From the NCBI RefSeq assembly GCF_038005985.1, contig NZ_JBBOUI010000001.1, positions 107,501 to 171,500 on the forward strand: a stretch of 64,000 bases of DNA, written 5' to 3'. The stretch's first letter is position 1. Every line of letters begins with the position of its first letter. Shown one piece after another: positions 60,710-63,889 of this stretch. The translations under genes were made by a program, and so were the position numbers. A model generated the notes under the pieces. That model did not search any database. It saw nothing but the letters and a program-made list of their open reading frames with translations, and was not told the DNA's origin. This DNA comes from Solibacillus sp. FSL R7-0682 (lineage in GTDB: Bacteria > Bacillota > Bacilli > Bacillales_A > Planococcaceae).

Positions 60710-61417
60710 CTAATTTATAGTTGTTAAGTGTAAGCTATAACTTAATTCACCATCATACAAGAGAAATTCTCGACCTTGTTTTCGATGATATAAATCCATC
60801 ACATAGGGATAATAAATAGGTTTGGCGTCATTTACAAAACTTTTGTAAAGATTGGTCTCTTTAATTTCAAACGGTTTCAAGTCGGATTCCCTTTTTTTTA
60901 TGACTTCTGTAGTATTTTGAAAAAAGTCCGCCGGCAATAATGAATCACTATTAGGTGAATTCGGATTAATGGAACTCACTTCACCATTTTCAATATTAAT
61001 TAATAAGATGCAATCATAAAAAGATAAGTCATCTTGAATTGGTTTTAAAGCTATGAAAATTAAAACATACTGTTCATCTAAATAAACCAATTTGGAATAA
61101 ATTGATTGTCGATATTCCAAATCAAGAACAAATTGTTTGAGAGATATGCTCATTTTTTGGGGGTTTGAAAAGTCAGTTGATTTATAACGATAGAAATGAA
61201 TTGTTTGATGCTTACAGTCAAATGCACTAAAGTAAAAAAATAATCGCGTAGGCGATAGCGCATATTCATTATATCGGAGAGTGGTTGAATGGATTTCATT
61301 GATTGTTCCGTCCATTAAATTGATCTTACTTAATGCAATTTTATTATCACTTAAAACTAGAGCTGCAAATTTTTCATTGTTAATTGTATGAAGGGGAATC
61401 AATCTTTCATTATTCAA
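60710..61417 (-). CDS. Unknown 235-residue protein
   Basis: I do not recognise a family. The product is soluble, without signal or membrane helix, rich in aromatic and beta-forming residues in repeating strands (for example NNEKFAALVLSDNKIALSKI, FHFYRYKS, YVLIFIALKPIQ), which suggests beta-propeller-like blades. It faces the peptide/regulator locus (61.5-62.9 kb). The ATG lies behind a weak site. Confidence 0.6.
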   Translation of the reverse strand: MNNERLIPLHTINNEKFAALVLSDNKIALSKINLMDGTINEIHSTTLRYNEYALSPTRLFFYFSAFDCKHQTIHFYRYKSTDFSNPQKMSISLKQFVLDLEYRQSIYSKLVYLDEQYVLIFIALKPIQDDLSFYDCILLINIENGEVSSINPNSPNSDSLLPADFFQNTTEVIKKRESDLKPFEIKETNLYKSFVNDAKPIYYPYVMDLYHRKQGREFLLYDGELSYSLHLTTIN

Positions 61418-61560
61418 TCTAATACCTCCAATACCCTAAAAATATATTAAAAATAATGTAAATAGCTAACCAAAATATAAATCGAACCTAATAATTAGGT
61501 CTATCAACATATATTTATAAGTTCTATTAATAAATTTATCACCTATTGCGGATATTTAAT

Positions 61561-61710
61561 AAAATAGTTAGATTTAACTAAATGGTTGGAGTGGTTTTGT
61601 ATTGTTGGAGATAAATCGAAAGATTAAAACTGCGGTTCATTTTTTTAGCTACCATTTAAAGATTAATGGGATGAAAGTAATGGCAGAGTGTTGGCTGAGG
61701 GAAAGGTAGA
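61561..61710 (+). other. Decayed copy of the regulator promoter and start
   Basis: Bases from 61561 (aaaatagtt, then taactaaatggt) closely resemble the stretch upstream of the HTH-TPR gene at 61965 (aaaatagtc, then taactaaaggt), including distance to a TTG start (61601). The frame that follows is only 35 codons (ending WLRER). It looks like the remains of a duplicated regulator gene. Confidence 0.45.
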
Positions 61711-61737
61711 ATTTAGATTATGGGGGTTCATTGAAAT

Positions 61738-61776
61738 TAAAAATGCGTCTCCATGTAGTGTTGATAACATGGAGAC
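61738..61776 (-). terminator. Terminator of the peptide transcript
   Basis: On the minus strand, perfect arms gtctccatg/catggagac with a 12-base loop are followed by gcattttt. It lies about 70 nt after the 23-residue peptide gene, which fits a very short transcript. Confidence 0.75.
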
Positions 61777-61843
61777 AAAGGCTATAATAGCGAATTTTAT
61801 TTTTAGAAAGAGTTTAATAATAATCATAAAACTTTCCTTTAAA

Positions 61844-61915
61844 TTAGAATTCACCGCCAATTAACCACATACCAAAAGTAGTAATTGCATCATTTAAAAG
61901 TAGCAATTCTAACAT
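61844..61915 (-). CDS. 23-residue peptide, candidate signal for the adjacent regulator
   Basis: ATG (complement of 61913-61915) sits behind an excellent AAAGGAGGTGAT site. The product starts MLELLLLNDA, continues ITTFGM and ends WLIGGEF. It is short, hydrophobic and acidic at the end, similar in size and placement to the short peptides (such as SHP or PapR) read by RRNPP-type regulators. It is divergent from the HTH-TPR gene by 83 nt and ends in its own terminator. No known peptide family is recognised, so its signalling role is inference. Confidence 0.6.
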   Translation of the reverse strand: MLELLLLNDAITTFGMWLIGGEF

Positions 61916-61934
61916 ATTTAATCACCTCCTTTTA

Positions 61935-61964
61935 TTAACATACCATATTTTCCAATGGTATAAT
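61935..61964 (+). promoter_or_regulatory. Divergent regulator promoter with dyad operator
   Basis: TTAACA (61935-61940) and TATAAT (61959-61964) are 18 nt apart and would drive the HTH-TPR gene. Between them lies the inverted repeat TACCAT...ATGGTA (61941-61946 and 61955-61960), a likely operator shared with the peptide gene on the other strand. Confidence 0.55.
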
Positions 61965-61998
61965 AAAATAGTCAAATATAACTAAAGGTGGGGTAACT

Positions 61999-62880
61999 TT
62001 GAATTCAATTGGAGAAACATTGAAAGAAATAAGATTGGCAAAGGGTATTACACAAACGTATATATCTAAAGAAGCTGAGATTACTCAAAGTAATTATTCC
62101 AAATATGAAAAAGGAAATATTGATATGGGAAGTGAGGCATTTTTAAGAATTCTTGAAACTATGGATGTACAGCTTCAAGAATTTATGTACATTCAAAATG
62201 ACCACCAATTATCAAAGAAAGAGGCAATTCTTTTAAATTTTTTCAAACTACCATTTCACAATTTATCTGCACTCTCCGAATTACAAAATAAGTGCATAAA
62301 GTATTTAGAGCAATCAAATAGTGTATTAATTCAAGATATTTTAATATTAATAGAAGCACTTAAGATTATTTATATTGAAAATGATTTAGCTAAGGGGCGA
62401 CAAATCGTAGCACCAATTTGGAATCGTCTATGCAAAAATGATGAATTATTTGTTTATGATATATATTTTCTAAATGCAATTCTCTATATTTTTTCACTAG
62501 AGGAAGTACTGAATATTAAACATTATTTACTAAGAGCGTACAAAAAGTATCAGGACTTTCCGAATACTTTAGCCATTTTTGTTAACCTACATATTAATAT
62601 TTCTTTGCTTCTATTGGAAAATAAACTTTATGAGGAATCCTTAGACACTTTAGAAATTGTTGAAGAGATATGCACAAAAAAACGTCAATATTTTCAACTT
62701 TCTATTATTTATATAAGGAAAGGCATATGCTTAAATAATCTTAAAAAAAATGGCGATGATTTAATAGAAAAAGGAATTCATTGGTTGCAAATGTTTGATG
62801 AAGTTGATGCCCTCGAAATCATGCAAAACGAAATTGACCTTTACAATAAAAATCAAAACATTTCTTCTAGTAGAACATAA
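61999..62880 (+). CDS. HTH-TPR regulator (Rgg/RRNPP-like)
   Basis: A 293-residue protein. An N-terminal HTH_3 domain (about 4-58) reads LKEIRLAKGITQTYISKEAE with SNYSKYEKGN. The remaining 230 residues are all helical and TPR-like (LLLENKLYEESLDTLEIVEE), the layout of Rgg/MutR and other RRNPP regulators that bind exported peptides. The start is TTG behind GGTGGGG. A tiny peptide gene lies divergently just upstream, the usual arrangement of Rgg-SHP pairs. Confidence 0.8.
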   Translation: MNSIGETLKEIRLAKGITQTYISKEAEITQSNYSKYEKGNIDMGSEAFLRILETMDVQLQEFMYIQNDHQLSKKEAILLNFFKLPFHNLSALSELQNKCIKYLEQSNSVLIQDILILIEALKIIYIENDLAKGRQIVAPIWNRLCKNDELFVYDIYFLNAILYIFSLEEVLNIKHYLLRAYKKYQDFPNTLAIFVNLHINISLLLLENKLYEESLDTLEIVEEICTKKRQYFQLSIIYIRKGICLNNLKKNGDDLIEKGIHWLQMFDEVDALEIMQNEIDLYNKNQNISSSRT

Positions 62881-62884
62881 GATA

Positions 62885-63060
62885 AAGGCTGGGCATAACT
62901 ATATTAATAAATGGAAATCAGGATTGCAGTCAATAAAAATTTGAAGTTATTGAATTGATTGGAGTGCATGGTCGACTCCTAGTGGAAGAGAGCGTGACGC
63001 CTGAGACTACAGGCTCAGGCCACTCCCCTGGAAAGCGTACCCGGAACGTAAATCAATACC
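62885..63060. repeat. Dispersed intergenic repeat element
   Basis: A non-coding stretch with gattggagtgcatggtcgac, gactcctagtggaagagagc, acaggctcaggccactcccc and cccggaacgtaaatcaat. It is markedly richer in G+C than its surroundings. I recall closely similar intergenic units in many Bacillales genomes; they fold into long hairpins. No gene is present. Confidence 0.65.
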
Positions 63061-63069
63061 TTCTATAGC

Positions 63070-63110
63070 AAAAAAATCAGGTTTTTCTTATAGAAAAACC
63101 TGATTTTTTT
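63070..63110. terminator. Bidirectional terminator
   Basis: Perfect arms aaaaaaatcaggtttttc/gaaaaacctgattttttt with a short loop. It serves the convergent regulator and methyltransferase genes. Confidence 0.9.
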
Positions 63111-63190
63111 ATAATGTCCAGCCTCTGCCTCTTCCAAGAAATATCGATGCTACAAATCATTATGAAATTTTTAAATCTTTTGCAAAGCAC

Positions 63191-63889
63191 TCATGCTTTT
63201 TTAAACAAACCTACGATGAAATCCTCCAGCCCGAATTCATTTTCGTGTAAATGCTCATATTGCATATCTCTTATTTCAATTTCCATAAATTCGTGGAAGA
63301 TTGCTTGTAATTTTTCTTTGTTATACCCCAGCCCCCCATGTAAGCTTCGATCAATGTAATATTGCTGATCAGATAAGGAAGAGCCGCCGTATTTTCCATT
63401 CTCTTTAAATGCACTTATAGAAAATTGACCTTTATTTGCTAAATGCTTCTGAATTAATTGTATGTAAGATATTCTTCGGTGTGGTGCTAAATGATGGAAA
63501 CAGCCTGAATCATAAATGAAATTGAATTTTTGGCATGGTAAATCTAAATCAAAAATATTTTCACAAACAAAGTGAATTTGTACGTTATCATTGGCTGCCT
63601 GGTCAGTTGCCCACGCAATCGCCTCTTTTGATAAATCTACTGCGGTAACTGAAAACCCTTGCTTAGCTAAGTAAATGGCATTTCGTCCATTGCCACAGCC
63701 GAGTTCAAGTACATGGCATGGCCTTATATTTTCCCTTTCAACATATTTGACTAAATGCTCGTCGGGTGTGTCGCAAAAAAATGGAATATCGTTTGATTTT
63801 TCTTTATAAAATGAATCCCAAAATTCTTTAGGCTCTCTTAATAGAGAGTCTAATAATTGCATTAAATCATGCTCACTTTTCACTATCAT
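63191..63889 (-). CDS. Class I SAM-dependent methyltransferase (TehB-like)
   Basis: A 232-residue methyltransferase. The SAM-binding motif I is VLELGCGNGRNAIYLAKQG (about 60-78), the acidic loop TAVDLS follows (about 82-87), and NIFDLDLP and FIYDSGCFHHL (about 125-135) form motifs II-III. It is similar to TehB/thiopurine-type small-molecule methyltransferases. ATG behind GGAGG. The remaining 110 bases of the window hold no gene I can support. Confidence 0.87.
   Translation of the reverse strand: MIVKSEHDLMQLLDSLLREPKEFWDSFYKEKSNDIPFFCDTPDEHLVKYVERENIRPCHVLELGCGNGRNAIYLAKQGFSVTAVDLSKEAIAWATDQAANDNVQIHFVCENIFDLDLPCQKFNFIYDSGCFHHLAPHRRISYIQLIQKHLANKGQFSISAFKENGKYGGSSLSDQQYYIDRSLHGGLGYNKEKLQAIFHEFMEIEIRDMQYEHLHENEFGLEDFIVGLFKKA

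Follow-up and report, generated by a model that had tools for sequence, protein, structure and literature searches.

Whether a short reading frame missing from the annotation and the regulator gene from which it diverges constitute a pheromone and its receptor, and, if so, how they relate to the known classes of peptide signalling, is the question raised by the locus described here. The window (that is, the whole 64 kb stretch of DNA that was analysed) is part of a 4.06 Mb Solibacillus genome of 8 contigs; its family is taken, from the named members, to be Planococcaceae, and the family that includes Solibacillus and Sporosarcina is now named Caryophanaceae, order Caryophanales, at NCBI. The initial annotation had proposed a candidate quorum-sensing pair. 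Family-wide pairing of peptide and regulator, selection on the peptide frame in relatives and a predicted receptor fold now stand behind this proposal; signalling itself--from translation of the peptide in this strain through its export, trimming, uptake and binding to the direction of regulation and the targets--is what we infer from them. With a probability of roughly 0.85, the pair is taken here to be an Rgg-type (RRNPP) peptide-signalling module.

The peptide gene and its divergent regulator

The candidate pheromone precursor, MLELLLLNDAITTFGMWLIGGEF, is encoded on the minus strand at 61844-61915 by 23 unannotated codons that begin with ATG and follow a 10-nt Shine-Dalgarno match; the regulator gene occupies 61999-62880 on the plus strand, which leaves a gap of 83 nt between the two divergent starts. 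Both the near-perfect ribosome-binding site and the divergent layout that had been claimed for the pair are therefore confirmed. Behind the peptide gene the minus strand carries an intrinsic terminator-like stem-loop with a T run (61739-61776; folding energy -15.9 kcal/mol, z -4.39), which consists of a 10-bp stem and a 10-nt loop at 61747-61776 followed by GCATTTTT, and none of 200 shuffles folds as well. A consensus terminator scan of 61400-63200 lists no site; it admits loops of 3-8 nt only, and it missed this hairpin because the 10-nt loop exceeds that range. The terminator of its own with which the peptide gene had been credited is thus upheld in the form of a terminator-like hairpin.

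The regulator (293 residues, TTG start) has an N-terminal HTH, a C-terminal TPR-like domain and a length within the range of about 280-300 residues that is typical of RRNPP proteins, and, as expected of Rgg/RRNPP receptors, a small peptide gene adjoins it, whose product is a candidate signal. Pfam models HTH_19, HTH_3 and Rgg_C match above cut-off (the last with 29.2 bits against 27); the NCBIfam model TIGR01716 (RGG_Cterm) stays below its cut-off (26.3 against 36.9 bits), which counts against an Rgg reading. A receptor profile (A1) built from 21 relatives matches the solved structures of Lmo0325, a Listeria relative of the regulator (1.7e-23), Rgg3 (1.9e-16), Rgg2 (2.7e-14), PlcR (2.9e-8) and RopB (3.3e-7), as well as 9lth, Rgg144, PrgX and shorter HTH proteins; the RopB chains are only hit 14, and their scores do not decide kinship because the solved RopB chains lack the HTH domain. 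An AlphaFold2 model of the regulator (pLDDT 91.2, pTM 0.77) is all-helical, with 16 helices, and its nearest folds are NrpR (9lth, the best), Lmo0325 (4ryk), PlcR (3u3w), Rgg144 (7zcv; TM 0.78/0.81), Rgg2 and Rgg3; ComR (a poorer match, TM by query 0.43-0.63) and PrgX are matched as well. Domain matches, profile and predicted fold all make the regulator a receptor of RRNPP type and Rgg kind, as its HTH-plus-TPR layout had suggested from the start. Arg153 of Rgg2 contacts SHP; in the profile alignment this position is Phe in the family, which counts against the signalling reading.

The mechanism proposed for the pair is as follows. The divergent short gene would give rise to a 23-residue acidic, hydrophobic peptide, of which roughly the final 7-10 residues, around W-L-I-G, would be the signal. 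The peptide would exit the cell, perhaps be trimmed, re-enter through an oligopeptide permease and bind the TPR groove of the regulator. The regulator would sit on an inverted repeat (61969-61984) that overlies the peptide gene's promoter, and would alter how strongly this gene and the target genes are transcribed.

The surroundings of the pair contain repeated DNA. At 61557-61623 (plus strand) lies what is likely the remnant of a decayed second copy of the cassette (75% identity over 67 nt to 61961-62027 by alignment), made up of the repeat TAGTTAGATTTAACTA at 61565-61580 and what is left, at the 5' end, of a second rgg. Weak similarity of this decayed tandem copy extends, within 61400-61640, into the place where its peptide gene would be expected. 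On the far side of the regulator, 62945-63075 is a dispersed repeat that matches 27 stretches of the genome when its own is counted; the best full-length match elsewhere is 85% identical.

Pairing and constraint among relatives

Homologues of the regulator occur in 55 of 261 genomes of the window's family when a single protein is used as the query at E 1e-20, and in 80 of the 261 when a profile is used; a class-wide sample of 398 genomes gave 23 matches at E 1e-25. Named records with a homologue include Planococcus, Lysinibacillus, Sporosarcina, Viridibacillus, Metasolibacillus, Psychrobacillus, Trichococcus, Atopostipes and Alkalibacterium as well as Bacillus altitudinis. In a collection of named genomes, none of 25 stretches found with the window's regulator alone was confirmed, and 32 of 225 found with an alignment query were; among viral contigs none of 262 stretches was confirmed as a regulator homologue. 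Three phage records (all unannotated Listeria phage records) and 19 plasmid records (18 from Listeria and one from Macrococcus; six were inspected) hold a homologue. The 90 homologue pieces reduce to 80 full-length ones, ten having been dropped for want of the start or of the C-terminal part (in L007, L034, L064, L067, L079, L084, L085 and L086). The window's regulator is at most 38% identical to any other in the tree and 50-53% identical to pieces of the broken regulator at locus L007.

Pairing was defined by an opposite-strand frame of 12-32 residues within 260 nt of the regulator, with a Shine-Dalgarno match of at least 5 and the end motif W-[LIFVMA]-[ILVFSTAM] followed by at most seven residues. 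Such a frame accompanies 50 of the 80 full-length homologues in the window's family; the same test finds it at 0 of 80 on the regulator's own strand and at 0 of 80 at -450 to -190, and 20 dinucleotide shuffles give a mean of 0.65 (maximum 2). The conserved co-occurrence on which the initial annotation had staked the pair is thus found. Nor is its opposite, loss of the peptide where the regulator is kept, seen in the window's clade (37 rows of a 111-row tree, SH-aLRT 98): 34 of the 37 rows, near-copies included, have the peptide, and three (L021, L035, L045) do not. Mapped onto the tree, the peptide label changes 12 times versus 37 in shuffles, near-copies contributing to the difference. The strict test finds no peptide at 30 of the 80 homologues, which counts against a signalling pair; by the tree labels 28 of the 80 are without one, 25 of them outside the window's clade. 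For the tree, repeat and neighbour counts the W-ending frames of L050 and L051 were judged to be chance and were counted as without peptide; L029 (where the frame continues past W) and L070 (where no standard start is found in the expected place) are outside the 50 and are counted as with peptide among 52 of 80; and the labelling script for the tree also admitted ATT starts. Beyond the window's family, no such peptide was found beside L098 (Bacillus altitudinis), L110, L111, L114, L116 or L117.

The reading of the peptide frame as a gene is borne out by its mode of change. Within three groups of close relatives the differences at codon positions 1/2/3, summed over all pairs, come to 33/0/84, 5/0/34 and 0/0/18 (pN/pS 0.32, 0.12 and 0.07), and two further pairs of frames give 4/2/10 (pN/pS 0.14) and 1/1/1 (0.54). 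This substitution pattern marks the frame as translated and under constraint in those groups of relatives; no close orthologue of the window's own peptide was found among the relatives, and it is from their frames that the figures come.

Altogether 43 distinct peptides were compared, including that of the broken locus L007 and leaving aside L029, L070, L165, Trichococcus and Listeria. They are 14-23 residues long (median 18) and have net charges of 0 to -4, versus +1 to +2 for six published SHPs (sequences as given in PMC3257209, PMC3679016 and PMC5167397). An acidic residue occurs at positions 2-4 in 36 of them, D or E one or two places before W in 37, and Gly two to five places after W in 41; Lys or Arg before W occurs in only five. 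Examples are MLDFIISMLDIWFIGGG, MVDLLITTLELWIIGTGGG, MIDMIIIALDLWLIGIGGG and MKMEIFQILIDIWIIVGG. What the window's peptide has in common with its relatives is the C-terminal W-L-I-G region and the early acidic residue: it retains the latter together with W-L-I-G-G, and most of the family differ from it in having a shorter middle and a D/E ahead of W. Its counterpart at L007, MVDLIIEVVNALGLWLTG, likewise has no D/E before W. By its sequence, then, the window's peptide belongs to a family that numbers over 40 distinct peptides and for which NCBIfam contains no matching model (six precursors searched) and Pfam none over cut-off (five tried).

Peptides so small and hydrophobic, many with secreted-like proteins encoded nearby, might instead be membrane-active toxins or bacteriocins, with the regulator as their control gene; this is scarcely credible given that the peptides are acidic or neutral and of 14-23 residues, that the regulator is predicted to fold like pheromone receptors and that the C-termini resemble SHP pheromones. 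A more serious rival, though an unlikely one, grants that the family is real and holds that the cassette of the window's strain is a dying remnant that no longer signals. It is consistent with the decayed second copy next to the cassette, with the broken state of the nearest relative of the regulator (that of L007), with the departure of the peptide from the family consensus and with the failure to find a linked target; what opposes it is a regulator that is full length and well modelled and a peptide gene whose start, Shine-Dalgarno sequence and hairpin are intact. A working signalling pair is accordingly the reading retained below.

Several arrangements observed on the margins of the survey may be recorded here. 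In two genomes of Metasolibacillus type (L047, L049) two or three tandem rgg genes lie near a DUF4279 gene, with one per array having a W-peptide. At L165 (genome G380, from another family of the class) a divergent frame of 14 residues, MFSPDIIWAIRPSR, with a 10-nt Shine-Dalgarno match, lies beside a receptor relative, and at the streptococcus-like loci L172-L174 (genus code g45) receptor relatives are flanked by divergent lysine-bearing peptides ending in HLLGGG (L172), LLGGGWWDWPLPIINK (L173) and DIWRWWGFH (L174). On the Listeria plasmids L196, L198 and L201, divergent 18-codon frames of the form MFS...LLCGHWWV, alike in all three, lie upstream of rgg on the minus strand; they have a Shine-Dalgarno match of only 4 nt, lie outside the listed gene tables and are possibly a WW-type partner of the plasmid Rgg proteins. 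In Listeria monocytogenes (L197) a divergent 12-codon frame of LCP-like size, MLTLLKSINWLF, lies 97-136 nt upstream of rgg, on the minus strand, with an 8-nt Shine-Dalgarno match.

Relation to known systems and the proposed export

The family resembles the Rgg-SHP systems of streptococci (groups I and II; Rgg2/SHP2 and Rgg1358/SHP1358) in its receptor fold and in its divergent short gene, and many of the relatives' peptides have an SHP-like C-terminus, in which D/E precedes the core and Gly closes the stretch. Among the C-termini are DIWFIGGG and, at L055, DIWIIVGG, which differs by one substitution from the SHP2 octapeptide DILIIVGG as it is given in PMC3257209 and PMC3679016. Unlike SHPs, however, the peptides of the family are acidic to neutral, mostly lack N-terminal lysines and have Trp in the core, and their hosts are outside Lactobacillales. 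The window's peptide has no acidic residue before the core, a residue that in SHPs starts the mature C-terminal peptide; with zero Lys and zero Arg it also has no Lys/Arg-bearing hydrophobic leader of the SHP type, and hence, being acidic and without a lysine leader, it is by composition not a canonical SHP. Of the Rgg-SHP logic originally ascribed to the locus, the divergent pair, the Rgg receptor and, in many relatives, the SHP-like C-termini are retained, whereas the acidic charge and the missing lysine leader do not fit.

To the RopB-LCP systems (SIP of S. pyogenes) the family is similar in that there is no recognisable leader, the peptide gene is divergent, the peptide is aromatic/aliphatic and a secreted-like protein often adjoins the peptide gene. 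LCPs are mostly of 8-10 residues according to passages in PMC10518010, unlike the peptides of this family with 14-23 residues, and the 23-residue frame of the window falls outside that ultrashort range; the same passages allow for a few longer exceptions and name a longer LCP of Lysinibacillus sphaericus and LCPs of Bacillus cereus. NrpR of Streptococcus salivarius (9lth) may, to go by its name and by PMC10518010, be an LCP-type receptor. ComR-ComS/XIP offers another partial likeness, in that the S. mutans precursor, MFSILTSILMGLDWWSL, has a Trp core and no lysines, but there, as described in PMC5167397, comS sits downstream of comR; moreover, the core is WW and the fold match to ComR is poorer. 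PlcR-PapR, NprR, Rap and AimR share with the window the Bacillales hosts and the TPR receptor; their propeptide gene lies directly downstream and the product is SEC-exported (as PMC9765709 describes), whereas here the gene is divergent and leaderless. The family is SHP by its core and LCP by its missing leader, and neither by full definition.

Trichococcus belongs to Lactobacillales, and there the same kind of core is found in a longer precursor. All seven Trichococcus loci examined (L100-L105 and L118) have a precursor of about 53-56 residues divergent from a receptor that is 31-32% identical to the window's; the precursors start with MKKFIVLS or similar and end in IIWFIN, IIWFIG, MLWFIG, MIWFIG or IIWLIG. 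Since similar signal ends are found on leadered and on leaderless peptides alike, export is favoured, as is an active C-terminus; the leadered precursor, whose start has the look of a classical leader, is the strongest single hint on mechanism and points to an exported signal. From the likeness of their ends, common descent of the leadered and leaderless forms is inferred. The window's peptide itself has no leader that would explain export, which counts against an exported signal. As to the machinery, the host genome contains two matches to EcsB (present in 2 of 14 control genomes) and three matched stretches, in two places, to M50 proteases, whose presence is uninformative because they were found in 14 of 14 control genomes. 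EcsB is taken here to be equivalent to PptB, and the M50 protease to Eep, these being the exporter and protease parts used by SHPs, which leave by PptAB, are processed by Eep and are imported through Opp/Ami.

It could also be that the peptide binds its receptor inside the cell and never exits, and hence that it reports an expression state rather than cell density. The missing leader would be explained, as would the charge of the family and the lack of Lys or Arg before W in 38 of the 43 peptides, but the Trichococcus precursors couple a like C-terminal motif to what looks like a leader, and in other Firmicutes the leaderless LCPs of PMC10518010 have proved to signal from cell to cell. A purely internal partner is accordingly regarded as quite unlikely, and an exported signal is preferred.

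Two recent surveys place Rgg-type receptors, in the passages that treat their distribution, in Lactobacillales (PMC9765709, PMC12700828); LCP pairs are reported in Bacillaceae and Staphylococcaceae (in passages of PMC10518010), and a 2026 review describes Rgg orthologues, in the part concerned, as widespread in low-G+C Gram-positives (PMC13361665). To judge by the LCPs named in PMC10518010 and by Lmo0325, pairs of an Rgg-like receptor and a peptide have precedents in this part of the tree. No description of the W-peptide family was found in the article text searched on Rgg, the core strings, Lysinibacillus, Planococcaceae and Trichococcus; some of its members may be among the candidates that PMC10518010 and PMC10075063 list. 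As judged by the frames themselves, Rgg-type pairing is found through the window's family, outside Lactobacillales, with a like divergent peptide at 50 of the 80 receptors. A broader interpretation, to which even odds are given, is that Planococcaceae have a large, separate class of Rgg pheromones, in which the signals are acidic leaderless Trp peptides, many of them wired to different secreted effectors encoded behind the peptide gene, while Trichococcus keeps a like signal within a leadered precursor, so that the core stayed and the export route was swapped. If this is true, spore-forming relatives of Bacillus have an Rgg-SHP-like language that the two surveys place in Lactobacillales. Leaderless and leadered forms of a like signal in related systems would make the exit route of leaderless pheromones directly testable, and the secreted-like proteins so often encoded next to the peptide could guide a search for effectors under density control.

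Operator-like repeats and genes behind the peptide

Promoter-like sites were identified by consensus match only, 13 of them in the region versus 11.2 in shuffles. For the regulator there is TTAACA-18-TATAAT (61935-61964, plus strand; 11/12); for the peptide gene there is a weak match, TTGACT-17-GAAAAT (61947-61975, minus strand; 9/12), and another minus-strand site, at 62003-61975, that scores the same. The dyad TACCAT-N8-ATGGTA, which had been pointed out as lying inside the promoter, is indeed present at 61941-61960, between the TTAACA and TATAAT of the regulator's promoter-like site. Inspection found no such dyad at this place in relatives; it was set aside because what the relatives have is a different inverted repeat, closer to where the regulator gene starts, and it is probably not the operator. 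The candidate operator is instead the inverted repeat TAGTCAAATATAACTA (61969-61984), which lies between the -10 and the ribosome-binding site of the regulator gene, has one mismatched arm pair, and includes TTGACT, a -35-like site for the peptide gene that has the same score as the other such site; binding of the regulator to this repeat would bring it into contact with both promoters.

Perfect inverted repeats with 6-nt arms occur at -50 to -8 of the regulator start at 24 of the 52 peptide-bearing loci (shuffle mean 4.0, maximum 8), and the summed inverted-repeat score over these loci is 240 versus 172.5 (maximum 192) in 100 shuffles; at 8 of the 52 the best repeat has at most 4 of 6 arm pairs. 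The relatives' repeats, of the form AGTC...GACT or ATATTC...GAATAT, differ among loci in sequence, spacing and centre (-17 to -42). The exact form TAGT-N8-ACTA, like the window's repeat, occurs in 10 of 97 upstream regions, where shuffles average 1.0 and never exceed 3; seven of the ten are the Trichococcus loci, all of which have it before the regulator. With one mismatch allowed it occurs in 36 of 97 versus 22.8 (maximum 29) in shuffles. As a sequence pattern, the strict form covers only part of the homologue family. A search of the host genome with the operator pattern found 57 sites versus 212 for a control pattern, that is, neither enrichment nor a visible regulon, which counts against the signalling reading. 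Five TAGT...ACTA sites lie outside the window among the 50 of 57 sites listed, of which four are uninformative. The fifth (L204; contig C1, 3332695) is an exact repeat 65 nt before a plus-strand gene whose product has a secreted-like start; as a distant target this gene is an unsupported lead.

The next gene in the direction of the peptide gene (60710-61417, minus strand) encodes a protein of 235 residues that matches no family over cut-off and in which no signal sequence was found. Homologues occur in four further genomes of the 261 (G028, G029, G036, G043) and, because three of these four have no regulator at E 1e-20, the gene is not linked to rgg elsewhere and was rejected as a target. The secreted-like protein that is frequent behind the peptide in relatives is absent in the window.

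Among those relatives, 44 of the 52 peptide-bearing loci have a same-strand frame of 80-400 residues behind the peptide, within 800 nt of the regulator start. This arrangement would suit a peptide that serves as leader or attenuator of the gene that follows it, with stalling of ribosomes at the conserved Trp codon, but the 44 frames fall into 28 unrelated clusters, the place of the peptide is tied to the regulator rather than to any one downstream gene, there is mostly a single Trp codon and the window's peptide has its own terminator-like hairpin, all of which renders attenuation very improbable and leaves a signal for the regulator as the preferred function. By the looser of two signal-sequence scripts (a rough one), 27 of the 44 frames are secreted-like versus 81 of 343 other frames at the same loci, a count that is inflated by near-copies since the 27 fall into 18 clusters; the stricter script gives 18 of 44. 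The contrast with loci without peptide is weak because 5 of 13 frames there are also secreted-like by the looser script. At least one of the frames, of 89 residues at L014, is probably spurious.

The genes behind the peptide include a C39-like peptidase (L025), Ntox44 (L055), DUF4279 (in genomes of Metasolibacillus type) and, in Sporosarcina, a C92-like amidase just under cut-off (26.7 of 27). Together, the secreted-like and sigma-factor neighbours recall RopB-SIP-speB and ComR-ComS-sigX. At six Solibacillus loci (L008, L011, L012, L014, L015 and L016) the W-peptide is followed by a gene of one shared cluster, which lies about 370-510 nt upstream of rgg on the minus strand. The L008 copy encodes a sigma-70-region-4 protein of 183 residues, which we take to be reminiscent of sigX and which is possibly, by that analogy, a sigX-like output of the pair.
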